A stretch of 39,264 bases of DNA from a virus. A program made the position numbers and the translations under genes. Below the pieces are notes generated by a model that ran no database searches, was not told where the DNA came from, and saw nothing but the letters and a program-made list of their open reading frames with translations. The DNA lies in IMG/VR virus record IMGVR_UViG_3300023174_000337, positions 1 to 39,264 of that record. One strand, written 5' to 3'. Position 1 is the stretch's first letter. Each line of letters starts with the position of its first letter. Shown here piece after piece: positions 3,364 through 37,161 of the stretch.

Positions 3364-4291
3364 ATAGTAATTCGTTTAAGTATGGGTAATTTTTTGGACG
3401 GAGATGAACAGAGCTTTTCTGCTCTAGAATGTCTAGCATCTTTGTGCCGTCTTCGTCTATCCATTCTTCCGGCCACTTGATAACTTTGAGTCCGGATTCG
3501 TTGATAATTTTGTTGGCAACTTTTCTCAATCTCATTCTCTCTTCTCTGGTTCCGAAGAATGGTTGCTTCTTGTAAAGCCCTGTTCCAGGAATCTTTCTGC
3601 TTTCGTGTTCAACTGGTAACAACTCTACTAGAGTGCAATCAGTTAATTGCTTTGCGAAGTCAACATACTTTATAAATAAGTCAATAGTCGCAGCTATAGG
3701 ATCTTCTTGTCTCATCAGATGGAATCTGTTATCAATATTCCCAAAATAGAGAGTGACTTCATCATACTTTTCGTTTATTTCTTCAGGAGTAGATCTTTTC
3801 AAGAATCCGTGTAGAGTTCTTCCAGGCGTAAAGTCTAGTGTGTACTTTGGTTTCCAAACCGATAAACCGTGAGAATCGGATATAACAGCTTGTCTGCTTT
3901 TCTTGCCGAAGTCCATAAATAAATTCACTAGGTTTCCAACAGGAAATTCAGCATTCTCGATCTTGATTCTCTTGTTGAATCCTTCGAAGTCGAACTCTTT
4001 ATTAATGAACTTTACACCACCTTTGAAATCTGCCATTGCTTGCATCTTTTCGTAGTGTTCTTTTTGAGGTCCTCCCGGCACATTAAATGAACCTTCCATG
4101 AAATTTACTCCTTCGCAAACGAAGAGAGCATCGTAATCCTTCCAAGTGTGCGATTTGGGATTTACATCTATTTGATCTTGCGGGAAATAGTCTCGAATCA
4201 TTCGAGTAGCAATCAATCCGTATGCGCCGCCTTGACTATTTAAGGTAGATCCTACGTTTCCCATGATGCTAACTAATGCGTATCTCGCCAT
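3326..4291 (-). CDS. SGNH-hydrolase-like protein
   Basis: 321 residues. SGNH/GDSL blocks can be placed: block I as ISDSHGLSV (Ser140 candidate nucleophile), block III as YFGNID (Gly184, Asn185), and block V near the C-terminus as LDILEQKSSVHL with candidate His296. A conserved-looking segment LLPVEHESRKIPGTGLYKKQ precedes the C-terminal part. The first 130 residues (VSIMGNVGSTLNSQGGAYG, then VCEGVNFMEGSFNVPGGPQ) are a separate domain I cannot name. SGNH proteins act as esterases, lipases or O-acyltransferases; the substrate here is unknown. The gene overlaps the PLP-like gene downstream. A TATAAACA box lies upstream of its ATG. Confidence 0.55.
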   Translation of the reverse strand: MARYALVSIMGNVGSTLNSQGGAYGLIATRMIRDYFPQDQIDVNPKSHTWKDYDALFVCEGVNFMEGSFNVPGGPQKEHYEKMQAMADFKGGVKFINKEFDFEGFNKRIKIENAEFPVGNLVNLFMDFGKKSRQAVISDSHGLSVWKPKYTLDFTPGRTLHGFLKRSTPEEINEKYDEVTLYFGNIDNRFHLMRQEDPIAATIDLFIKYVDFAKQLTDCTLVELLPVEHESRKIPGTGLYKKQPFFGTREERMRLRKVANKIINESGLKVIKWPEEWIDEDGTKMLDILEQKSSVHLRPKNYPYLNELLYVPQQSNGSIEP

Positions 4292-5244: not shown

Positions 5245-6867
5245 TTACATTCCCATCATAGGATTCATTCCTCCATCATCAGCTTTCTTATCAGCCTTCT
5301 CAAAAACTACACTTTCAGTGCATAGAATAGTTCCAGCTACTGATGCAGCATTTTTTAATGCGGTTATAACTACTTTAGCTGGATCAATTAATCCAAATTC
5401 AAACGCATCTACTACAGTACCGCTTTTCGCATCGTACGTAGCATTTTTTAATTTAGACGTATGTACTTCATGTGCAACTGAGTACCACTTATCGTTTCCT
5501 GCATTGGCAAGAATCTTTTTAAATGGTTCTGAACACGCCATATCTACTATTCTCTGCCCAAGATCATTTGGATCTTCTTCTCCTCTAAATACATCATAGA
5601 GTACTATTCCTCCTCCTGGTACAATACCATCTAAAAGAGCTGCCTTAGTTGCCATAAGTGAGTCTTCAACTCGATCTTTTTTCTCTTTGATTTCGATATC
5701 AGAATCTCCACCAACCGAGATGATTGCAACTCCACCGATCAACTTACCAAGTCTCTCTTGTAATTTTTCTTTCTCGTAAAAAGAGGTTGCTTTCTCGATC
5801 TGCTCTTTTATTTCGTTGGAACGATTCGTGATAGAGATTTCGTCTCCCTTGCCATCAATGATGGTGGTTTGATCTTTGCTAACCGTAACCATTCTAGCTC
5901 TTCCCAAGAACTCGCCAAGTTGATTTGGTGCGATCTTGTCAAGCTTGTGTCCTTTGTCTTTTGAAAGTACTTGTCCGCCTGTAAGAATAGCAATGTCTTC
6001 CATAATAAGAGTTTTTCTCTCTCCAAAATCTGGTGCTTTTACCGCACATACTTGAACGATGCCTCTCATCTTGTTTACGATTAGAGTTGCCAACGCTTCG
6101 TCACCGATATCTTCAGCAACGATAAGTACTGGTTTGTTTTCAGAGTTTGCTTTGGTCAACACTTGCAACAACTCTTGCGCTGTAGAGATACGACCGTCGT
6201 ACAAGAAGACGAATGGATCTTCCAATACCGCTTGCATCGTAGTGTTGTTGGTAGTAAAGTATGGAGATTTATAACCTCTGTCGAACTGCATACCTTCAAC
6301 AACTTCTAATTGAGTTTCTCCGGTTTTAGACTCTTCGATAGTAACTACTCCTTCGCGGCCAACCTTTTCGATAGCAGTTGCAATAAGTTCTCCGATTTCT
6401 GGATCGTTATTACCAGAGATGGTGGCTACTTGTTTGATTTGCTCTTCTGTAGAGACATCAATTGCCATTGCTTTGATTTTCTTTACAGCTTTTTCAACTG
6501 CTGCGTCGATCTGCTTTTTAACAGCGACTGCGTTTACTCCTTGATGAATCAAGGTCAATCCTTCTTCAACCATTTTGGTTGCCAAGATTGTAGATGTTGT
6601 TGTACCGTCTCCAGCTTCGTTAGCAGATTTTACTGAAACGGCTTTAACAAGCTGTGCACCCATATCTTCAACTTCGTCTTCCAACTTGTGGAATGCTTTC
6701 GCCACGCTGACGCCGTCCTTTGAAATGCGTATTTCTCCTGTTTGTTCTTTGATAAGAACTGTACGACCTCCTGGTCCGAGCGTAGATGAAACTGATTGGT
6801 TCAACTTTTGGATACCGGTCAGCAACTTCTCTTTTAATTCTTTTCCTGATAAATTCTGTGTTGACAT
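5245..6867 (-). CDS. groEL: Chaperonin GroEL (60 kDa subunit)
   Basis: Full-length 540-residue chaperonin. Key residues are in place: GPGGR at 31-35, Asp51 in SKDGVSVAK, Asp87 in GDGTTT (ATP/Mg binding and hydrolysis), VEDSLMATKAA (the hydrolytic Asp398 region of E. coli GroEL), and the C-terminal GGMNPMMGM tail. It forms the folding chamber with GroES, whose gene lies 10 bases upstream. A phage copy may fold virion proteins that the host chaperonin handles poorly. The reading frame is intact, so it is not a remnant. A strong terminator follows. Confidence 0.98.
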   Translation of the reverse strand: MSTQNLSGKELKEKLLTGIQKLNQSVSSTLGPGGRTVLIKEQTGEIRISKDGVSVAKAFHKLEDEVEDMGAQLVKAVSVKSANEAGDGTTTSTILATKMVEEGLTLIHQGVNAVAVKKQIDAAVEKAVKKIKAMAIDVSTEEQIKQVATISGNNDPEIGELIATAIEKVGREGVVTIEESKTGETQLEVVEGMQFDRGYKSPYFTTNNTTMQAVLEDPFVFLYDGRISTAQELLQVLTKANSENKPVLIVAEDIGDEALATLIVNKMRGIVQVCAVKAPDFGERKTLIMEDIAILTGGQVLSKDKGHKLDKIAPNQLGEFLGRARMVTVSKDQTTIIDGKGDEISITNRSNEIKEQIEKATSFYEKEKLQERLGKLIGGVAIISVGGDSDIEIKEKKDRVEDSLMATKAALLDGIVPGGGIVLYDVFRGEEDPNDLGQRIVDMACSEPFKKILANAGNDKWYSVAHEVHTSKLKNATYDAKSGTVVDAFEFGLIDPAKVVITALKNAASVAGTILCTESVVFEKADKKADDGGMNPMMGM

Positions 6868-6877
6868 AATCTGTTTT

Positions 6878-7168
6878 TTAAATTATTTGTGATAAAATTT
6901 CTGTTTCTTTTGCGATGAAATAGTCTTCTCCATCGATGGTGATTTTCATTCCTCCCATTTTAGGAATCAAGACTTTCATTCCTGGTTTCAGTGCGCTCTC
7001 TACGCTTTCTCCTTTGTGCCAATTGTAAGTAGGACTTGTAGCTACTACTTCCGCCATTTCAGGGCGTTCTTTTCCCAAATCGGGGATGATGATATTGCCA
7101 AACGTTTCCTCTTGAGATTCGATTGGTTTTAGAATGACATTGCCATTCATTGCTTGTAATTTGCTCAT
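6878..7168 (-). CDS. groES: Co-chaperonin GroES
   Basis: 96 residues, normal GroES size. It begins with LQAMNGNVILKPIE, the first strand of the barrel. The mobile loop carries NIIIPD in place of the usual IVL tripeptide that binds the GroEL apical domain, and the later strands include PGMKVLIPK and DYFIAKETEIL. It caps the GroEL chamber. Gene order groES-groEL with a 10-base gap is as in bacteria, and both lie downstream of hsp20. The leader is A-rich without a Shine-Dalgarno sequence. Confidence 0.96.
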   Translation of the reverse strand: MSKLQAMNGNVILKPIESQEETFGNIIIPDLGKERPEMAEVVATSPTYNWHKGESVESALKPGMKVLIPKMGGMKITIDGEDYFIAKETEILSQII

Positions 7169-7399: not shown

Positions 7400-7816
7400 T
7401 TACTTGATTGTAATTTTTTTAGGCTCTTTAGATTCTGTGTAAGGAACGTCTATTACAAGTAGTCCCTTGTCCATTTCAGCTGCCAACTTATTCAAGTTGA
7501 ATTTGCTAGCCACTTTCCATGCAAGATCGAAAGACCTTCTAGTGATGCCTCTTTGAATGTAATTTTTTTCTTCTTCTTGTTCTGTTTTTTCGTGGGAAAC
7601 CCTTAGCGTATCACCGTCTACTGTGATGTCAAGATCTGATTTTTCAAGACCTACGACGGCGAGCTCAAATCGCAATCCTTTGTCTGTTTCGTAAATATCA
7701 ACGGGATAGTTGATTTTTTGTTGGTGTGTGTTGAATGTTGATTGTCCATCGAAGAAATTCTTCCAGACAATGTCGAGTGGATCCATTGCCCATGCTCTGT
7801 TTAATAGTTGTGTCAT
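7400..7816 (-). CDS. Small heat shock protein, Hsp20/alpha-crystallin family
   Basis: 138 residues. The alpha-crystallin domain begins at PVDIYETDKGLRFELAVVGL and includes DLDITVDGDTLRV, a YIQRGITRRSFDLAW block (matching the usual 'rSF...p' strand) and KGLLVIDVPY. The C-terminal KITIK supplies the IxI motif that docks neighbouring dimers. It is an ATP-independent holdase. As first gene of the Hsp20-63aa-GroES-GroEL unit, it would hold unfolded proteins for the chaperonin. A TATAAATA box lies 76 bases upstream of the ATG. Confidence 0.93.
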   Translation of the reverse strand: MTQLLNRAWAMDPLDIVWKNFFDGQSTFNTHQQKINYPVDIYETDKGLRFELAVVGLEKSDLDITVDGDTLRVSHEKTEQEEEKNYIQRGITRRSFDLAWKVASKFNLNKLAAEMDKGLLVIDVPYTESKEPKKITIK

Positions 7817-8415: not shown

Positions 8416-9234
8416 TTATGAGTTTTGTGCTAATGCTACTAATTTGTTTGCGATGTCTTGTGCTTTTTGTCCTCTATGACCATACGCTTCTACGGTATCT
8501 AACGCGTCTTCGAAAGTCATATCTGCTATTTCCATCCAATCTCTTTCAGATAGAATATCGTCTAATATGTTTTGAGCTTCTTCATAAGCATCAGTGTCTG
8601 GTCCCATAAAGCTCTCTTTCAAAAGAGGGTTGTTTTTAGCTTCGTTTACTTTTGTGCCTGTCAATTTGCAACCAAATCCGTGATCGTCTAAAAAGTCATT
8701 TACACTTTTAATATATTCTGCACCAGATTTAGTTGGTTTCACCCTAATTGAAAACGCAGCACCATCTTTTTTGCCGTCTTTATCCAATGCTTTTAGTGTA
8801 TTGTTGCCAAATGGTAGTTTTACCTTTTGATCTCCTTTACCTATTCCATTATTAAGAAATTTAATAGCATCTATCAATTCGTCTTGATCTGATCCTTTTA
8901 GTTTCAATTCAGTTGTGGCAGCTTCATTCATTGAAGTAGATCCTCCTTCGAGTGCTGCAATTACTTGTTCGAAGTCCGATCTTTTCCACTCTGGATAGTA
9001 ATCTGATTTTATATCTGCGCTTTGGCCTTGAGCCATAGAATAGAAATCGTTTTTAGCCATTTTATTCCAAGTAAATGTATCTGATTGGAATTGCTTTATA
9101 GTTCTTGCAATCTCTTGAGGACTAGCTCCAGGACCTTCTTTGTACTCGTAAGAAAAACCGGATCCTTCTTCGTCATCGAATTCTTTCAAAAGAGGATTGT
9201 TCTTTAGGTACTTATTGTAGTCGAATGGTTTCAT
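8416..9234 (-). CDS. Tagged paralog C: putative capsid-targeted protein with an internal second tag
   Basis: 272 residues. It begins with the tag MKPFDYNKYLKNNPLLKE, then FDDEEGSG and a PGASPQEIARTIKQF block resembling paralog B. After MNEAATTELKLKGSDQDEL comes a mixed alpha/beta domain (LPFGNNTLKAL, FSIRVKPTKSGAEYI). At residues 198-207 NEAKNNPLLKES repeats the core of the tag, followed by a domain like the C-terminus of paralog B. This looks like two ancestral tagged genes fused, with an internal LxE site that could be cut into two mature proteins. It lies 6 bases after paralog D and 11 before paralog B. Confidence 0.66.
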   Translation of the reverse strand: MKPFDYNKYLKNNPLLKEFDDEEGSGFSYEYKEGPGASPQEIARTIKQFQSDTFTWNKMAKNDFYSMAQGQSADIKSDYYPEWKRSDFEQVIAALEGGSTSMNEAATTELKLKGSDQDELIDAIKFLNNGIGKGDQKVKLPFGNNTLKALDKDGKKDGAAFSIRVKPTKSGAEYIKSVNDFLDDHGFGCKLTGTKVNEAKNNPLLKESFMGPDTDAYEEAQNILDDILSERDWMEIADMTFEDALDTVEAYGHRGQKAQDIANKLVALAQNS

Positions 9235-12605: not shown

Positions 12606-12782
12606 TTTATATTTCTCGTTGATCGTAGTATTTCCTTTTACGTGATTGGGATCATAGGGGCAATGGCGGCACTTGTTTCCACAACAAGTTCCACGTGATA
12701 AATGAAAATGAGCAGTGAGGACCATAAGCCCGGACTGCTCATCTGTATAATAATCTATGTGCTCTTTTATTTTACCGGACAT
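12594..12782 (-). CDS. DUF5522-like Cys-rich protein
   Basis: 62 residues from the ATG at 12782; a TTG three codons earlier is a less likely start. The pattern YYTDEQSGLMVLTAHFHLSR, then CCGNKCRHCPY, matches my recollection of DUF5522, short proteins common in Bacteroidota with clustered Cys/His residues that probably bind a metal. The biochemical role is unknown. The start lies inside the end of the HNH endonuclease gene (11-base overlap), so the endonuclease seems inserted just upstream of it. Confidence 0.75.
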   Translation of the reverse strand: MSGKIKEHIDYYTDEQSGLMVLTAHFHLSRGTCCGNKCRHCPYDPNHVKGNTTINEKYKLKT

Positions 12783-13353
12783 TATTAGCAACTAATTTAC
12801 ACATTTGTATAAAGTGATCTTGCTCAAATGTATTTTTCATTCTATTGATATGTTGATGAACCCATTGAACATTGCCAATTATATAACCCTTAGAACTATC
12901 AATTCGATCTACTGATGCTGTAAATTTATCTTTTCCGCTTACCGGTAATGTTATATCCAATCCAGTGAGTTTACATTTACCATTTTGTTTTTGAAATAAT
13001 TCCCAAAGATATTTTATATCTATATTAATGTCTACAGGATTTCTTTTATTATTTTTTCCATTATAGCCTTTACAAGATCTTAATACGTGAGAATTAAACC
13101 AATGTTGAGATATTCCTTCATATCCTTGAAAATATGGAGACTCTTTTCCAACTTTCGAATCATTTTCTTTTTTTAAACATCCGCATGATTTTTGGGGGTG
13201 ATATGATCTATTTAAATGCTTAGTTGTAACATAACATATTTTTCCGCAATCACATAAACATTCCCAAACTTTTGTTCCATTTCTAGATTGATTCGTTAAT
13301 TTTACAACTTTTAATCTTGAAAACTTTTTTCCTGTTAGATCTACTATTTTCAT
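12772..13353 (-). CDS. HNH homing endonuclease
   Basis: 193 residues. The N-terminal part carries a possible zinc-binding set (CLCDCG ... KSCGC) within a block beginning LTGKKFSRLKVV, as in phage HNH proteins with an AP2-like/zinc-ribbon N-terminus. The C-terminal HNH core reads CKLTGLDI, then SVDRIDSSKGYIIGNVQWVH and NRMKN, the usual 'D.Rid...Y..gNvqwv...N.mK' signature. It is free-standing, between ribonucleotide reductase and the DUF5522 gene, and not inside an intron that I can see. It probably cuts DNA of related phages lacking the gene and spreads by repair. Confidence 0.88.
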   Translation of the reverse strand: MKIVDLTGKKFSRLKVVKLTNQSRNGTKVWECLCDCGKICYVTTKHLNRSYHPQKSCGCLKKENDSKVGKESPYFQGYEGISQHWFNSHVLRSCKGYNGKNNKRNPVDINIDIKYLWELFQKQNGKCKLTGLDITLPVSGKDKFTASVDRIDSSKGYIIGNVQWVHQHINRMKNTFEQDHFIQMCKLVANNVR

Positions 13354-19217: not shown

Positions 19218-19838
19218 TTATTTTTTACAATTATCGAAATGCCATTTTTTCATTATTCCGCCCTTGCCTTTTTTATTGCAATATGGACATTCAACTATTG
19301 GCATATTATTTTTAATCTCTCTTATTTTGTTTTTTGTTTCTTGAGAATGTTTTTTACCGTACATTGGATTATTTTCGCCTTTCATTCCATTTTTATACAT
19401 TGGATTATTTTGCCCTTTCATATGATCTCTTTTTCCTCTCAAGGCTTTTTTATGTTCTTCAGTTTTTAGTCTACCTTTTAAACTATCACTTATTTTTTTT
19501 GCTACAGTTGGATTTTTGGTAGGATTATTTTCTCCAAATATTTTCCCAGTTCTTGTTGCACCTCCTGTTCCTATCTCTTCTATAATATTTGCCCAATTAC
19601 TATTATTTACTACGTTAAATAATTTAGAATAATATAACCCCATATCTCTAAGATCTTTTGCATCAAAAGTTTCATGAATTACATAAGTTTGTACATCTTT
19701 GATAGTATACCCATATTTTTTAATTGTTCTTAACCATATTTTTCCTGATCCAATGTATTTATATGGATTTTGTTTAGTTTTTCCTAAATATAATAATCCA
19801 TTAGGTAATTTTTTTACGTATATGTAATTTTTCTCCAT
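19218..19838 (-). CDS. GIY-YIG-type homing endonuclease with NUMOD3 motifs and C-terminal zinc finger
   Basis: 206 residues from the ATG at 19838; an upstream TTG in the same frame lies in the terminator hairpin and is unlikely. The N-terminal nuclease part reads YIYVKKLPNGLLYLGKT, the GIY...YIG pattern in degenerate form, followed by YKYIGSGKIWLRTIKKYG, typical of a phage subfamily. NUMOD3 DNA-binding repeats follow (GENNPTKNPTVAKKISDSLKG, then NNPMYKNGMKGENNPMYGKKH). The C-terminus holds a C2HC finger (CPYCNKKGK ... HFDNC). It is free-standing between the SSB and uvsX genes, immediately after a terminator-like hairpin. Confidence 0.82.
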   Translation of the reverse strand: MEKNYIYVKKLPNGLLYLGKTKQNPYKYIGSGKIWLRTIKKYGYTIKDVQTYVIHETFDAKDLRDMGLYYSKLFNVVNNSNWANIIEEIGTGGATRTGKIFGENNPTKNPTVAKKISDSLKGRLKTEEHKKALRGKRDHMKGQNNPMYKNGMKGENNPMYGKKHSQETKNKIREIKNNMPIVECPYCNKKGKGGIMKKWHFDNCKK

Positions 19839-19842
19839 TAAT

Positions 19843-19896
19843 AAAAAAAGGCTCAAAAGAAGTAAAGGTCGCGGAATGACCGATACTCTATGAGCC
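19843..19896 (-). terminator. Terminator hairpin after the SSB gene, with inner stem-loop
   Basis: On the coding strand GGCTCA pairs with TGAGCC and is followed by seven U and, five bases later, the ATG of the homing endonuclease. Inside is a second stem GGTC/GACC with loop ATTCCGC. The long spacing between outer arms is unusual for a plain terminator. Confidence 0.65.
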
Positions 19897-29682: not shown

Positions 29683-32097
29683 TTAATGTTTTGCTGGGAT
29701 AGGTGCGGCTATCGGTGATTGATCTGCTATTGTTGAATAATCCGATAATCTTTTTACTGTTTTCTTACCATCATCAGGATTTAGTGTTATATAAATACTA
29801 TCTCCTCTACTCATTGATTTACCCGTATTTTCTAATTTTTGAGGTCCTGCGACTTTTGCTGATTCTGCTGCAAAATTAGTGGGTGATATTGAAGGAGCGC
29901 TAGGCATTGGTGGTGCGCTTGAAGATTTTCCTCCATTCATTGCTATTGCGGCTAATATACCCGCTACTACTGTAGCAGCAATAGGAATACCAAATGGTCC
30001 TAACATTGAAATAATTTTAGCTCCAGCTCCTACTCCATCAATAGCTGCTTTTGTACTTGATTTTGCTATTCCTTGAGTATCGAGTACTGCTCCTACTTCT
30101 TTTTGTGCATTAGTTGCGATTTGCGCGACTGTGGTAGCTCTTTTCAATAATAAATCTTCTTTTTGCAATAGTAATACCTCTTTTTCCAATACTACTTGTT
30201 GAGCTTTTTGTGAAGATAATATAAGAGAATACGTGATCATTCCAGCCATAACAGCAGCAACTCCTACGAGCGTGGCTTTTATATTTTCTGTATGAGAAAA
30301 GAATTCAGCGACATGAGAGACCATTTCCGCAAGACCCTGAGTCATTTTTCCGATTTGATCAGATATTCTTGTCATAGTCGCTTCCATTTGCTCTTGTGCT
30401 GTTGCGCTTTTTGCATCTTGCGCGGCTTTATCTCCTAGTGTAGCTGCAATTTGATCATAAGTCATATGTTGCGCAACTAGAGTATTGTATTGGGTTTGTA
30501 AAGATTTACCCGCATCGTCTCCAAGCAATTTAACCATTTCCTGCTTGTGATACATCTCGTCCATCTGCTCTTTAGAGAGACCAACTGCTTCTGCAAACGC
30601 TTGTTGTTGGAGTACATTCATTTTATTGTACTCGTTAGACGTCATCATCTTGCTATTCAACTCTTTCATCAAACCGTCTGTATCGTGATTAAGAGCCAAT
30701 TCTCTGGCTTTAGATAGATTCAGATCTTTACCGGTAAGTAATTGAGCTTCAAACTCTTTTGATATGCTGGATTCGAAATCTAAAAGAGAGCTTCCTTGAC
30801 TATTTATCGTATCGAGTGTTGTACCAAATTTGGTAGCAGTCATTACAGCAGCTGTCAATTGTTTGACGTTGCCTTTGAAATTATTTAAAACTGTTGTAGA
30901 AACTTTAGAAATGGCTTCTACGATTTGTTTTTCAGACATATTTAATTTAAGAGAAGCACCTATTGCTTTAGATGTGCCTACTACGTCTGAATATGTTTTT
31001 GTTAAAGATTTCCCCGCTTTGAGAGCTCCAAATTGCAAAAGCTGCATCGATTCTGCACTTACACCTAATCTCCTTTGTATTCCTGTAGTTGTGGTTAGAA
31101 ATTCTTCGTTTTGAGGACCCATGAAACCCAACGTATCATTCATCTGTCCGTATGTATCAGCCAACTGTTTAGCAGTCATCGCTAATTGCCCATTGGCCAT
31201 TGCCATGCTTTGGAAGTTATTTAGCATGGATTTACCTTCTGAAACTGAAACTCCCATTGCTTTTGCAACTTCAAACTGTTTGTCTTCGTATTGCAAAGAT
31301 AAATGAACTAATTTAGTTAATCCTGCAAATAGCAAAGTAGTCATTCCTACTAAATCTCTCATCGCTAAGCCAGCAGTCTTAAAAGATTCTTTTAATCCTG
31401 TACCTAAAACTTTTAATTTGCTACCTTTATCTCTAGCCACTTCTTCCATTTTTTTGGAAATCTCATCCATTTGAAGTAATCCTCCCATTCCAACTTTATC
31501 TAATATAGTTGATAGGCCTTTCATTGTAGCGCCTGCTATACCCATTCTCTTTTCGACTTCTTTTTCTTCTTGTAATCTCTTACTAGTTAGATTTAATGCT
31601 TTGGCTAAATAATTATTTTCGTCTAATAATAATTCTCCTTTTTCATTTAATACTCCATTAATTTCATTAATTCTTTCTAACTCTTTTTTAGAGAGTTCAT
31701 TATTTGTGCTTTTATTTTTAAGAATTTGACGTTCAAAATTCAGATTTGATGCGACTTTATTAAGTTTCTCTTGCATTGTAACAAGATCTTTTTTATTAAG
31801 TTGCATAATACCTTCTGAATCACTTCTAAGATCAGAGACTATGTCTTCTGTCGTTCTAAATGCTTTGTTTATATTTTTTACTTCTGTGCCTGTAGACACT
31901 AAATCATTCATAACGTTTCTCATCTGCTCTGCGAGATCCGTTACTTTCAAAGCAGATTCTGCGAATTGCTGCCTCCATTCGTTAAGAAGCACTTTTATAG
32001 CTTCTGAGTCTTTTTTTATTTTACTCAGATCAACGCCTTTAGCTAACTGCTGATTGAGTTTTTTTAATTCTTCAAAATCTTTTGAACTATCTGCCAT
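29683..32097 (-). CDS. Tail tape measure protein
   Basis: 804 residues. The first 200 are long charged coiled coils (KDFEELKKLNQQLAKG, MQEKLNKVASNLNFERQIL). The middle resembles tape measure proteins (MANGQLAMTAKQLADTYGQM, KAIGASLKLNMSEKQIVEAI). Two hydrophobic segments occur near the C-terminus (LVGVAAVMAGMITYSLIL and GIPIAATVVAGILAAIAM), as in tape measures that enter the host membrane on ejection. It sets tail length. At about 1.5 angstrom per residue this predicts a tail of roughly 120 nm. It is directly downstream of the frameshifting chaperone-like genes, the usual order. Confidence 0.88.
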   Translation of the reverse strand: MADSSKDFEELKKLNQQLAKGVDLSKIKKDSEAIKVLLNEWRQQFAESALKVTDLAEQMRNVMNDLVSTGTEVKNINKAFRTTEDIVSDLRSDSEGIMQLNKKDLVTMQEKLNKVASNLNFERQILKNKSTNNELSKKELERINEINGVLNEKGELLLDENNYLAKALNLTSKRLQEEKEVEKRMGIAGATMKGLSTILDKVGMGGLLQMDEISKKMEEVARDKGSKLKVLGTGLKESFKTAGLAMRDLVGMTTLLFAGLTKLVHLSLQYEDKQFEVAKAMGVSVSEGKSMLNNFQSMAMANGQLAMTAKQLADTYGQMNDTLGFMGPQNEEFLTTTTGIQRRLGVSAESMQLLQFGALKAGKSLTKTYSDVVGTSKAIGASLKLNMSEKQIVEAISKVSTTVLNNFKGNVKQLTAAVMTATKFGTTLDTINSQGSSLLDFESSISKEFEAQLLTGKDLNLSKARELALNHDTDGLMKELNSKMMTSNEYNKMNVLQQQAFAEAVGLSKEQMDEMYHKQEMVKLLGDDAGKSLQTQYNTLVAQHMTYDQIAATLGDKAAQDAKSATAQEQMEATMTRISDQIGKMTQGLAEMVSHVAEFFSHTENIKATLVGVAAVMAGMITYSLILSSQKAQQVVLEKEVLLLQKEDLLLKRATTVAQIATNAQKEVGAVLDTQGIAKSSTKAAIDGVGAGAKIISMLGPFGIPIAATVVAGILAAIAMNGGKSSSAPPMPSAPSISPTNFAAESAKVAGPQKLENTGKSMSRGDSIYITLNPDDGKKTVKRLSDYSTIADQSPIAAPIPAKH

Positions 32098-32129: not shown

Positions 32130-32477
32130 TTATTTTTTCGAAGATTTTATTTTGGATACGAAATCTGGAAGGTTTACTTTAGGCAACTCTTTCATATTAT
32201 TTATTGGATTGTTGGGATCTATCTTGTTTTTTCCAGTTGCTTTATCGTAATTGTCTTTCTCTTTTGTATAGAAATCGTTAATACTATTGTGCGTAAACTT
32301 TCTTAGCCAAATAGGCATATTATAAATAGTGTCCCAAGTATAACCACCTTTACCATGAAAAACTATTTCATGGATCTGATTAAATAATATTGGTCTATAT
32401 GTCGAGCTGTGGATAAAAAAATGAAATCCCGATAGGGAGCGATACACCCTCCTCTGTGTATCCATCGGATCCAACAA
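32130..32477 (-). CDS. Downstream frame of tail assembly chaperone/gp26-type protein, probably made by frameshift
   Basis: This frame is open for 115 codons from an ATG at 32477 that overlaps the upstream gene by 83 bases. The first 20 residues (MLDPMDTQRRVYRSLSGFHF) look like out-of-frame noise. The protein-like part begins after the overlap: RPILFNQIHEIVFHGKGGYT, then YNMPIWLRKFTHNSINDFY, a block I recall as common in T4-like phage proteins of this position. The most likely product is a fusion: ribosomes reading the 32395-33156 gene slip at seven U (32415-32421) by +1 or -2 into this frame. Tail assembly chaperones of many phages are made this way, just before the tape measure gene. Independent translation is not excluded. 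Confidence 0.7.
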   Translation of the reverse strand: MLDPMDTQRRVYRSLSGFHFFIHSSTYRPILFNQIHEIVFHGKGGYTWDTIYNMPIWLRKFTHNSINDFYTKEKDNYDKATGKNKIDPNNPINNMKELPKVNLPDFVSKIKSSKK

Positions 32478-33156
32478 ATGTAAAAGTCATATCGATATCA
32501 GGAGTAATTGATTTAATATATTTTCTTAGAGCCATAGAATCGGATGCTAGCATTCCGTTATCGATAAAATCTCTAATTACTTTTTTATCTACGCTTCCAT
32601 TTACAGATAAAATTTGTTGTTTTAGTCTGATAGTTACATCTGCAGATTGTTTGATTTTATTTAGAGCTTTTAATTCAGCTTCTATAATTTTATCATCTGC
32701 ATGAGTTAACAATTTAAACGTAATTTCGTTACCAGAATTTGGTAGAACGTAAGACACTTCGTTTGCGTTATTAAAAATAGAGTAGTCAACTTCTTTCTCT
32801 TTCAATTGAGAAAGATCTACGGTTATTTGCTCTTCTACACCCGACTGAGGATGCTTCACTTTTACTTCGTAGTCTTTACCGTATCCTAAAATTCTGGCTG
32901 CTAATAAGATAGCATTCTTATCTCCTGCGATTAGATCGTTGTAGCTTATCTTGCTAACGATCATCGATTGAAATAGCTTATCGAAAACTATGCCTTGAGA
33001 GATGTAATTCTGGTTAGTAAGAATGTCTTCTTCTTTTGCGGTCATGTACTTCATTTCTATTTCTCCTGACGATAGTGGATTGTCTTTTGTGTAAATCAAA
33101 CCTTTAGACGGTAACTTTACTATTTCTGTTGGTAGTGTAAAACCTTGTTGTGTCAT
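32395..33156 (-). CDS. T4 gp26/gp51-type baseplate hub assembly protein (tail assembly chaperone-like)
   Basis: 253 residues. The N-terminal pattern FTLPTEIVKLPSKGLIY, then GEIEMKYMTAKEEDILTNQN and FDKLFQSMIV, matches the T4 baseplate protein family that includes gp26. In T4 this family acts in hub assembly and is not in the virion. The C-terminus (VSLPIGISFFYPQLDI) ends just after a U7 run where a frameshift would add about 95 residues. Its location between tube and tape measure genes equals that of tail assembly chaperones in other phages. It has a TATAAATA box 13 bases upstream of its ATG. Confidence 0.82.
   Translation of the reverse strand: MTQQGFTLPTEIVKLPSKGLIYTKDNPLSSGEIEMKYMTAKEEDILTNQNYISQGIVFDKLFQSMIVSKISYNDLIAGDKNAILLAARILGYGKDYEVKVKHPQSGVEEQITVDLSQLKEKEVDYSIFNNANEVSYVLPNSGNEITFKLLTHADDKIIEAELKALNKIKQSADVTIRLKQQILSVNGSVDKKVIRDFIDNGMLASDSMALRKYIKSITPDIDMTFTFVGSDGYTEEGVSLPIGISFFYPQLDI
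32415..32421 (-). promoter_or_regulatory. U7 slippery run, candidate programmed frameshift site
   Basis: The coding strand reads TCA-TTT-TTT-TAT in the upstream frame and CAT-TTT-TTT-ATC in the downstream frame. A +1 or -2 slip on the U run joins the gp26-type protein to the 32130-32477 frame eight codons before the first frame's stop at 32395-32397. Confidence 0.6.
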
Positions 33157-33231: not shown

Positions 33232-33870
33232 TTATTTATAATATACTTTATATCCATTAATCATTATTCCATGTTTATGTTTCATTCTATATATCATAGT
33301 AGATGTTTTAATTCCAACAATTTTACTTAATAGATGAGCGCTGCCTGCTTCTACTATTTTTCCATCTTCAGTTTCATATATAACGCATCCTTTAGATGCT
33401 CTAGACTCTGCTCCTACTTTTCCTAATTTTGATCTTGTTGCCGCTTCAGATATATTTTTTCTTTGTTCTTTTGTTGGAATCCAATTAGCTTTACAATTTA
33501 TACCATTTTTATTGCCTTTCATTTTTTCACTCATCTCTTTTTTCCAATCTTCTTTTTTTTCTCTCTTCCAAAGAGGCATAAGTAGTTCTCTTGCTTCTGA
33601 ATACTCTTGTTCTGTTAGCTTTCTTTTACCATCGTATGCCATTCTATGGAAAGCCCACAACATTTTTTGACCATATATTGGATGATATTTGAATTGTTCC
33701 GCAAGTATTTTATGAACTCTGTAGTGTTCTCTTGCAGTTAGTAGCACTTCTGTGCTTTTCTTATTAAATGATTGCGGGATTATGTGATGTGATTCGTAGT
33801 AGACGTCTTCACCTTTTTTGCGATTACTTAGTAGTGCTGTTCTAATAATTTTGAAATAAGTTGTGAGCAT
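33232..33870 (-). CDS. HNH homing endonuclease
   Basis: 212 residues. The HNH core is near the N-terminus: YYESHHIIPQSFN, then EVLLTAREHYRVHKILAEQF, the phage pattern 'E.HHIiP.s......LtarEHf..H..L'. A middle basic segment (KKEMSEKMKGNKNGINCKA) and a C-terminal NUMOD-like helix-turn-helix (HLLSKIVGIKTSTMIYRM) probably bind DNA. It is free-standing between tube and gp26-type genes, bounded by a terminator on each side. Its ATG has the only strong Shine-Dalgarno sequence I noticed (AAAGGAGG, 7 bases upstream), which lies inside a hairpin arm. That would limit translation on readthrough transcripts. Confidence 0.88.
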   Translation of the reverse strand: MLTTYFKIIRTALLSNRKKGEDVYYESHHIIPQSFNKKSTEVLLTAREHYRVHKILAEQFKYHPIYGQKMLWAFHRMAYDGKRKLTEQEYSEARELLMPLWKREKKEDWKKEMSEKMKGNKNGINCKANWIPTKEQRKNISEAATRSKLGKVGAESRASKGCVIYETEDGKIVEAGSAHLLSKIVGIKTSTMIYRMKHKHGIMINGYKVYYK

Positions 33871-33950: not shown

Positions 33951-34436
33951 TCAGTAGTTCAAAATGCAATAATCCATTCCGATTGACATTGTCAATTCAG
34001 TAGGATCAGAACTAGACCAATCGTAAGATCCGAAAGAAGCTTCCTTGATGAATGCGCCTTTGATGATCCACTCAGATACAACGTCACCAACTGGTCCGAT
34101 AATCGATAAGTTTAAATCCTTCTTGTAGAAGTCAGAATAACCGTCTCTTCCTGTTACAGATTCGTGATGCAAACGCACCCATTCCATAACAGCTTGTTGG
34201 CCTGATGGAGAGATTGGATTGTAAAGAGCTAGACTCATGTCTTTCCACTCCGCTTTGCCTTTCAATTTACGATACACGTTCATGTGTTCTATTTTGATCT
34301 CGTTCAAGGTAACACCAGGAGCGTCGGCTTTTTTGATCATGTAAGAAGGAATACCGTCTACATACATGATGAACCTGTTATTGACTGTGGGTTCAAAAGC
34401 CGTAAACATTATCTCGTTGGGATCCAATACTGGCAT
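33951..34436 (-). CDS. Tail tube protein, gp19-like
   Basis: 161 residues, close to the T4 gp19 length of 163. Recognisable features include MPVLDPNEIMFTAFEPTVNN, then FIMYVDGIPSYMIKKADAPG, a basic YRKLKGKAEWKDMSLALYN strand pair and a C-terminal EASFGSYDWSSSDPTELTM followed by IGMDYCILNY. It polymerises into hexameric rings forming the inner tail tube, inside the gp18-like sheath encoded two genes upstream. It is followed by the hairpin at 33874-33906 that separates it from the homing endonuclease. Confidence 0.93.
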   Translation of the reverse strand: MPVLDPNEIMFTAFEPTVNNRFIMYVDGIPSYMIKKADAPGVTLNEIKIEHMNVYRKLKGKAEWKDMSLALYNPISPSGQQAVMEWVRLHHESVTGRDGYSDFYKKDLNLSIIGPVGDVVSEWIIKGAFIKEASFGSYDWSSSDPTELTMSIGMDYCILNY

Positions 34437-34962: not shown

Positions 34963-37161
34963 TTATGATCCGAATGATGCTCCTGTTGGCAAGATGTTGA
35001 AATCTAATTGAATAAATTCAGCAGTTCTTGTTGGTTGTAAGTAGATAGATCCAACCAATTGATTTCTATCGATTACGTCAGGAGTATTGTTTGTTTCGTC
35101 CATTACAACTTGGAAAGCGTAAAGACCTTGCTTTTGTTGTACGAATTCCAAATAAGGATTAACTTGATTCAAGAATTTGTTACGAGTTATAGTTGTATTA
35201 GGTTCGAATACCAATTGGTTAGCAATTTGCTTGATGTATCTCTTAAGAGAGATCAACAATCTTCTAACGTTCACTCTGTCAAGAGCTGATGGTTTGTCTT
35301 GTAATGTTTTCTGACCATAAACAACCGTTCCAACTCCAGGGAATGTAGCGATAGGATTGACTTTTCCTGCGTACAAGAAGTTTCTATCGTTAACGCTTAG
35401 TCTTCTTTCTGGTTGTAACACTGTTGAAAGACCTCCTCTGTTAAGACCTGCTGGTGCAAACCATTCTGCAGAAATCTTATCGTTGTATTCGTATACAGCT
35501 GGAATTAGTGTAGAAGGCGGAACAAAGTTTAATTTGCCTGTTTCACGACTTCTAAGTTGTACCCAAGGCCAATAAGTTGCTGCGTAAGAGTTATCGTATG
35601 ATTGCGCTTGCGTTTTTGCTTGAGTCATGCTTTGACCATATCCAACCGTATCTACTACAGCGATATTGTCTCCTCTTGTTTGAGCAAGAGATACTAAGCT
35701 ATTTACAGCTGATGTTGCATTTACCATAGTTAAACCAGGAGCATATATCACATTGAAATCGTACATGTCTTGATTGCTTAACAAGCTTATTCCAACGTTA
35801 TAACTTGTTGGGAATATACCTTGAATATTTGTTGAACTTACAGATACTGTTGAAGTGGTGTTAGGTATTGCTTCAAATAGATTCATAGGCGCTAATCCAT
35901 AGCATCCCCATATAGCTCCTTGAGCTCCATCGAATCCTCCATTTACAGATCCAGATCCTAATAAAGGCATTGAAGCTGTGTATGCATTATTTATGTTTCC
36001 ACTAGTATCAAAATAATTAGGTGTAGGCCTGTTAACAGATTTTACTCTAACGTATTTTGATTTGTTAGCGTAAGATCCGCTCAATTGTAGATAGCTATTC
36101 CCAAATTCGTCTGTTAGTATAGTTTGAGTTTGATCTCCTATTATGTACGCTATATAATTTGGTTGATTGGGATCCAAAGAAAGATTTGTCCAACTCTCTA
36201 ATACTGTTTTGCTGTTTTCGTAATCGTCCCCTCTTCTGATGATTAAACTAAACTGACCTGAACCGGAATCTGTTGCTACTACTTCGTATCTTATATTTGA
36301 TGAAGATCCTGAAGGGAGCAATCCAATCGTAGCTGATCCAGTGGCATTATTCATTACGTTACCATAAGAAAGTGTTTCTAAATCGAATACACTTGCATTT
36401 ACAGGTTGAGTAGGAGTAGATAGAGTTGCTTTTAAAACAACAGTTGATCCAGCAGATCCTGTGGCTTGTCCGAAAGAAAGACCGGTATAAATTTTAATGC
36501 CTCCACCAACTCCTGTAGAAGATCCACTGATTATTATGTTTGTTCCATCTGAGGAAGCTGTTATAGGCAGATTTGCGCTTGCTACATATGTGTTAATAAA
36601 CGATATTAAAGATCCCGACCATTGATTAGCTGTATAGCTGTTACCTGCATTTGGACTAAAATATCCGTAGCGAACCGTATCTGTATAATATGTATAGTTA
36701 AACCCAAATGCCGCTGGCATTAGATATGTGTATATGCTGTTATTAATAAAAGTAATTGGCATACCAGAAGCCGTAACAAACGATCCTGTAATATCTGCGA
36801 TAGGAATTTTTGCGTTAGCAAATGTTCCAGCTACTGAAGCTATATTACAAGGAACAGAAGCACTAGCCGCTGTGTAAGATCCAGATACTACTCTAGTGAC
36901 CAAAAGAGAGTCTCCCCCTTGTTCAAAGTAGTTTAATGCTGCCATACTCGTTAAGTATTCGTAACTAGTGCCTCCTGATACGAAAGCTGCTCCGAATACC
37001 GCTTTATATTGAGAATACGAAGTAACGTATGTTGGAATGTTTACTGGACCAGTAACAGTTGGACCCAATAGAGCTGCTCCTGCAGTTATTGGACCTTGAG
37101 TTATCTGACTCAAATCGTTTTCGTTTAAAAAAACGCCGGGTGATATTAATGTTTCAGCCAT
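34963..37161 (-). CDS. Tail sheath protein, gp18-like
   Basis: 732 residues. It begins MAETLISPGVFLNENDLSQ, the usual sheath N-terminus ('sPGV...E.d.s'), then ITAGAALLGPTVTGPVNIP and YEYLTSMAALNYFEQGGDSL followed by VTRV, all typical of contractile sheaths. The variable middle (about 100-430) is Ser/Gly/Thr-rich and probably surface exposed. The conserved C-terminal domain includes YWPWVQLRSRETGKLNFVPP, then AEWFAPAGLNRGGL and RNKFLNQVNPYLEFVQQKQG. It forms the outer sheath whose contraction drives the tube into the cell, showing this is a myovirus. Confidence 0.96.
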   Translation of the reverse strand: MAETLISPGVFLNENDLSQITQGPITAGAALLGPTVTGPVNIPTYVTSYSQYKAVFGAAFVSGGTSYEYLTSMAALNYFEQGGDSLLVTRVVSGSYTAASASVPCNIASVAGTFANAKIPIADITGSFVTASGMPITFINNSIYTYLMPAAFGFNYTYYTDTVRYGYFSPNAGNSYTANQWSGSLISFINTYVASANLPITASSDGTNIIISGSSTGVGGGIKIYTGLSFGQATGSAGSTVVLKATLSTPTQPVNASVFDLETLSYGNVMNNATGSATIGLLPSGSSSNIRYEVVATDSGSGQFSLIIRRGDDYENSKTVLESWTNLSLDPNQPNYIAYIIGDQTQTILTDEFGNSYLQLSGSYANKSKYVRVKSVNRPTPNYFDTSGNINNAYTASMPLLGSGSVNGGFDGAQGAIWGCYGLAPMNLFEAIPNTTSTVSVSSTNIQGIFPTSYNVGISLLSNQDMYDFNVIYAPGLTMVNATSAVNSLVSLAQTRGDNIAVVDTVGYGQSMTQAKTQAQSYDNSYAATYWPWVQLRSRETGKLNFVPPSTLIPAVYEYNDKISAEWFAPAGLNRGGLSTVLQPERRLSVNDRNFLYAGKVNPIATFPGVGTVVYGQKTLQDKPSALDRVNVRRLLISLKRYIKQIANQLVFEPNTTITRNKFLNQVNPYLEFVQQKQGLYAFQVVMDETNNTPDVIDRNQLVGSIYLQPTRTAEFIQLDFNILPTGASFGS

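Follow-up and report, generated by a model that had tools for sequence, protein, structure and literature searches.

Introduction

The G/GT frameshift is widely conserved in long-tailed phages except T4, and its direction is -1, -2 or +1 depending on the phage, -2 being that of the phage Mu tail genes (PMC5009743). In T4-like genes for the short tail assembly chaperone (TAC-N), poly-T sites are known to act as -1 signals, and the chaperones of Vandenendeviridae and Andersonviridae use a -1 shift at GTTTTT (PMC12846349). For forward shifts, no general motif has been identified (PMC10885494). As cited in two later papers (PMC12846349, PMC10885494), T4 gp26 and gp51 have been described as the short form and the long form (TAC-NC) of the chaperone (Vladimirov, Gautam & Davidson, Virology 2022); in some T4-like phages, two genes, one short and one long, take the place of frameshifting (PRFect). 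In T4, genes 26 and 51 are separate and divergently oriented. The abstract by Vladimirov, Gautam and Davidson from 2022 reportedly describes frameshifting as a conserved feature of several T4-like groups.

In view of this literature (PMC5009743, PRFect, PMC12846349, Vladimirov et al.), frameshifts in tail assembly chaperones are widespread and of a known kind, and no discovery of frameshifting in T4-like phages is claimed here. The present analysis concerns a virus with a T4-type contractile tail which, judged from comparative sequence, appears to make two versions of its chaperone from one gene.

Results

Gene arrangement in the window

The window, that is, the whole stretch of DNA analysed, was a 39-kb viral contig fragment (IMG/VR record IMGVR_UViG_3300023174_000337, 39,264 nt). 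An earlier note on this DNA had proposed a programmed frameshift on a U7 run at TCA-TTT-TTT-TAT, joining a gp26-type protein (ORF1) to a downstream frame (ORF2) in a pair directly ahead of the tape measure gene. The coordinates, the relative frame and the run were as claimed (Table 1), and the tape measure gene was found to start at 32097, 32 nt past the ORF2 stop. On the minus strand and in the frame of ORF1, the site is read as TCA TTT TTT TAT near the 3' end of the gene; the product of ORF1 ends in IGISFFYPQLDI, with GISFFYPQLDI as the residues before the stop. The ORF2 frame, offset by +1/-2 relative to ORF1, is open from 32480 to its stop at 32130–32132. The predicted fusion would be 341 aa long if the shift is +1 and 342 aa long if it is -2. 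The tail tube and tail sheath genes lie upstream of the chaperone pair. The tape measure ORF had no family match of its own in Pfam or PHROG, and its position is that of the annotated tail tape measure gene of Flavobacterium phage immuto, in which the same pair stands ahead of that gene.

Table 1. Features of the chaperone locus and neighbouring tail genes in the window.
Feature	Position	Strand	Remarks
gp26-type ORF1, read as TAC-N (short tail assembly chaperone)	32395..33156	-	253 aa, ATG start
Slippery run UUUUUUU in UCA UUU UUU UAU	32415..32421	-	A7 on the + strand
ORF2, putative TAC-C domain in the +1 frame	32130..32420	-	proposed to be translated only after the shift
Tape measure protein gene	29683..32097	-	804-aa ORF; assigned by position and length
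Tail tube protein (gp19 type)	33951..34436	-	phrog_4542 5e-22, phrog_45 4e-6
Tail sheath protein, contractile tail	34963..37161	-	PF17482 6e-13, PF04984 2e-9

Several other features of the window were observed. ORFs that by eye resemble homing endonucleases of the HNH or GIY-YIG type are inserted between phage genes at 33232–33870, 12772–13353 and 19218–19856 (-), the first of which separates the tail tube gene from the gp26-type gene. At 5245–7168 (-) and 7400–7816 (-) lie ORFs that by eye resemble a full GroEL and GroES pair and, after it, a small heat-shock (Hsp20-like) protein. Four neighbouring ORFs (9795–9241, 9234–8416, 8404–7997 and 5161–4412, minus strand) share the N-terminal leader M(K/R)xFD(Y/F)xK(Y/F)LKNNPLL(K/Q)E, and one more KNNPLLKE, internal, is present at 8634. 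This sequence is similar to leaders that target proteins to the capsid and end in a T4-type head-protease site, and the four products would then presumably be internal head proteins. No phage tRNA was found in the window.

Identity and predicted fold of ORF1 and ORF2

ORF1 matched PF12322 (T4_baseplate, E=3e-8) and phrog_150 (baseplate hub, E=9e-13), and thus belongs to the PF12322/phrog_150 family of T4 gp26 and gp51. The structures of the ORF1 and ORF2 parts were modelled separately, not as a fusion. The AlphaFold2 model of ORF1 (pLDDT 89.7) matched predicted gp26-type baseplate hub proteins of viruses, among them those of SP-15 (2e-17) and Aeromonas phage 25 (Gp26, 3e-5). Nothing significant was obtained for ORF1 in fold or sequence searches of the PDB; the Foldseek comparison with the solved HK97 tail chaperone 2ob9 gave a non-significant E=3.6 with a TM of 0.45 on the target. 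ORF2 had no Pfam or PHROG family match, and its model, of three helices (pLDDT 72), had no significant match among viral folds.

Conservation of the frame relation and of the run

Relatives were gathered with ORF1 as the sole query; the first two scans thus put no selection on whether the second frame was open. Among 99 representatives with <85% aa identity, the +1/-2 relation between ORF1 and ORF2 was found in 99/99 and the -1 relation in none, six loci of the third scan having been kept because they were +1. The same relation was observed in >170 contigs and in the named complete genomes of immuto, Mel-JY01, SP-15, LIS04, GXN1 and RM378. The nearest named relative is immuto, with 55% identity in ORF1, and the +1 set includes named phages of Flavobacterium, Microcystis, Bacillus, Listeria, Streptococcus and Rhodothermus. 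RM378, which sits on a very long branch, has TCC TTT TTT TGG and an open +1 frame. In public annotation, the second frame appears as a separate hypothetical protein and not as a frameshift product: in immuto at 5325–5435 (truncated; a 36-aa hypothetical protein only), in Mel-JY01 at 3737–3973 and in RM378 at 3701–3877.

The +1 frame continued for at least 53 codons beyond the gp26 stop in all 94 representatives whose sequence extends to its end, whereas the -1 frame had a median of 12 codons. Past the gp26 stop, the median dN/dS of ORF2 was 0.27 (113 unsaturated pairs), indicating purifying selection, and a conserved block, FFxLTxEYR...IHEIVFHGKGGYDWxTVYNMPIWLRR, was recognized. That the downstream frame is open across the run and conserved after it, as the earlier note had it, was borne out.

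The U7 run was kept in 85 of the 99 representatives, followed by GG, AC or AU. The first Phe codon of the site was UUU in 95/99; the second was UUU in 94/94, the remaining five representatives having Leu CUU or CUA there. Phe codons elsewhere in the same genes were divided between 635 TTT and 236 TTC. The Fisher p of 1e-12 for the second Phe codon against those elsewhere overstates independence, as the sequences are related. The two UUU codons carried 1.76 and 1.92 bits at their wobble bases, compared with mostly 0.02–0.3 at neighbouring upstream wobble positions.

Direction of the proposed shift

As to direction, the earlier note had offered a +1 or a -2 slip. On U7, including the site of the window itself, both re-pairings are perfect, and that of -2 is perfect on U6C as well. 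A ribosomal -2 frameshift, as in phage Mu, would insert one extra Phe at the junction (ISFFFIHSS vs ISFFIHSS). However, nine of the 99 representatives, from several lineages, keep the same frame relation without the full run. Their sites are TTT_CTT_TGG (four, including immuto), TTC_TTT_TGG, TTC_TTT_TAC, TTC_TTT_CGT (two) and TTT_CTA_TTC. At these sites a +1 slip of tRNA-Phe (UUU to UUU/UUC) or tRNA-Leu (CUU to UUU) is possible, whereas a cognate -2 move is impossible; in immuto (AGC TTT CTT TGG) and L121 (GAC TTC TTT TGG), for example, the P-site tRNA has no -2 re-pairing. The +1 half of the earlier proposal was thus favoured over the -2 half, and -2 frameshifting is considered unlikely for the family.

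In nearly all representatives, the shift codon is a UUU with U or C after it, and the site of Listeria phage LIS04, TTT_TTT_AGT, fits +1 if the first UUU slips. From the re-pairing possibilities, +1 at UUU before a pyrimidine would be the simplest single rule for the family.

Transcriptional slippage on the T7 run would also reach ORF2, by way of mRNAs that lack one U or have gained two and are then read straight through. The site is a homopolymeric run, but a run of seven bases is short for such slippage, and in the nine representatives it is interrupted (TTTCTTT, TTCTTTT, TTTCTA) and offers no homopolymer to RNA polymerase, yet the arrangement is kept. This explanation is distinctly less probable than a ribosomal one of either direction, and a +1 ribosomal shift is retained below.

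No strong stimulator was observed. RNA folding energy downstream of the site was slightly under that of shuffled sequences (mean z -1.08; upstream -0.91), an effect that was not site-specific. The A-site codon is UGG, UAY, CCN and the like, with no stop codon; conservation just upstream of the site is low, and comparison of the representatives revealed no close Shine-Dalgarno-like stimulator at the slip site. A purine-rich GGAGG is often present about 26 nt upstream of the run. It was dropped as a candidate because it codes for conserved Glu-Gly residues, does not occur in the L023/L024 group and falls outside the known stimulator spacing.

Crossing point between the frames

If ORF2 were a separate gene with its own or coupled initiation, no fusion would be made. 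The window and some relatives do have an upstream ATG, GTG or TTG in the ORF2 frame, and the separate 36-aa ORF annotated in immuto accords with such a reading. Against it, 46 of the 99 representatives lack any ATG, GTG or TTG from the last upstream stop of the ORF2 frame to the run, and 29 of these 46 have none in the next 25 codons either, so that a separately initiated product would lose the conserved PEYR...HGKGGYDW block. Where starts are present they are not conserved, in contrast to the wobble positions of the UUU codons. Independent initiation is largely refuted by L081 and L090, in which the ORF2 frame closes right before the run and has its first ATG 102 nt later.

In at least 10 representatives, the ORF2 frame is closed by a stop 5 nt before the run, and the gp26 stop lies 5–10 codons past the first site codon. 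The crossing point is thus bracketed by these two stops. Because of the upstream closure and the missing starts, the conserved ORF2 block would be translatable only through a frame crossing at or just after the run.

Taken with the constant frame relation, the kept UUU and the selection on ORF2, the missing starts make independent initiation very unlikely. Assembly or sequencing error, to which homopolymer runs are prone on some platforms, and gene decay are ruled out by the same frame relation in >170 contigs and named complete genomes and by the dN/dS of ORF2. Neither a well-conserved independent start nor a fusion in a single frame, either of which the earlier note had taken as evidence against its proposal, was found among >170 relatives, and the programmed frameshift that it proposed is strongly supported by the comparison.

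A sister clade with its second frame in -1, and T4

A second clade, with Agrobacterium phage Atu_ph07, Stenotrophomonas phage RAS14, LR756511 and relatives, has its second frame in -1, behind a heptamer of the T_TTT_TTC type. ORF1 of Atu_ph07 and of LR756511 belongs to PF12322/phrog_150, the same family as TAC-N of the +1 clade, and the ORF2 profiles of the two clades are homologous (hhalign probability 98.3%, E=2e-14). In the ORF1 tree, which had 60 rows, was made by a quick method and contains several long branches, at least two changes of direction were needed, although the well-supported branches were also compatible with a single change. In loci L096 and L193–L272 of the -1 clade, the slip AAT TTT TTC TTC CC lies about 10–15 codons before the stop in most members, and the 0-frame tail after it is basic and variable.

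T4 gp26 and gp51 both matched PF12322, gp51 with ~48 residues beyond the domain. By its sequence, gp51 is a PF12322 domain with a C-terminal extension, the build predicted for TAC-NC. When the gp51 C-terminus was aligned with a joint +1/-1 ORF2 profile in hhalign (GYDWDTVYNMPIWLR vs NYSLNSISKMIPAER), E=3e-4 and a probability of 41% were obtained, which is suggestive at most of homology between ORF2 and the gp51 C-terminus. Direct hhalign comparison of the +1 fusion family with T4 gp51 or gp26 was not significant.

Discussion

The results point to a real, conserved programmed frameshift cassette, most likely +1. It is considered quite probable that the tail assembly chaperone of this virus is made in a short form (TAC-N) and a long form (TAC-NC) by +1 ribosomal frameshifting at UUU_Y. 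Most ribosomes would end at the gp26 stop and release TAC-N. In a minority, tRNA-Phe on the UUU before U (or C) would slip forward by one base and re-pair with the overlapping UUU or UUC, after which ORF2 would be read and TAC-NC produced. By analogy with lambda gpG/gpGT, the tape measure protein would be covered by many copies of TAC-N and few of TAC-NC, and tail tube subunits would be brought in by the C-terminal domain.

In a wider reading, +1 slipping of tRNA-Phe on UUU_U or UUU_C alone, without an A-site stop or an evident stimulator, would be a standing route to the long chaperone in phages with T4-type tails that form a very large environmental clade. As the C-terminal domain would be reached via -1 in the sister clade and via a separate gene in T4, the direction of the shift would have been exchanged while the product stayed. 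We lean slightly towards this reading.

The mechanism is known from other phages; its forward-slipping form, judged by sequence, appears to be shared by about a hundred divergent relatives, and no annotation of a fused protein was seen in the named genomes checked. In the open full-text papers searched, a set that did not include Vladimirov et al. 2022, neither the +1 U7/UUU_Y class and its breadth nor a single domain served by both directions was described. T4 was long the exception to the rule of chaperones made by frameshifting (PMC5009743), and the gp26 relatives described here would do so in two opposite directions, so the path between the frameshift and the two-gene arrangements becomes testable. 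The family is also rich in naturally varied +1 sites that lack a stop codon, and such sites are poorly understood as a class; the fused product is overlooked by gene callers in these genomes.

Among known +1 sites, that of bacterial prfB, CUU_UGA, is similar in that a YUU_U site slips forward. It differs in having an A-site stop and a Shine-Dalgarno-like element about 3 nt upstream, neither of which is present here. Phage Mu reaches the same relative frame by -2, a move that nine of the relatives here cannot use. The Vandenendeviridae and Andersonviridae are alike in being contractile phages whose TAC-N gene has a T-rich shift site at its end and whose ORF2 is mis-annotated as a hypothetical gene, but their shift is -1. 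Lambda gpG/gpGT is likened by its arrangement: two overlapping frames lie directly ahead of the tape measure gene and give a short and an extended product, by -1 in lambda and, as proposed, by +1 on UUU_Y here. In T4, the long form is a separate gene, whereas here one gene and a frameshift would provide both forms.
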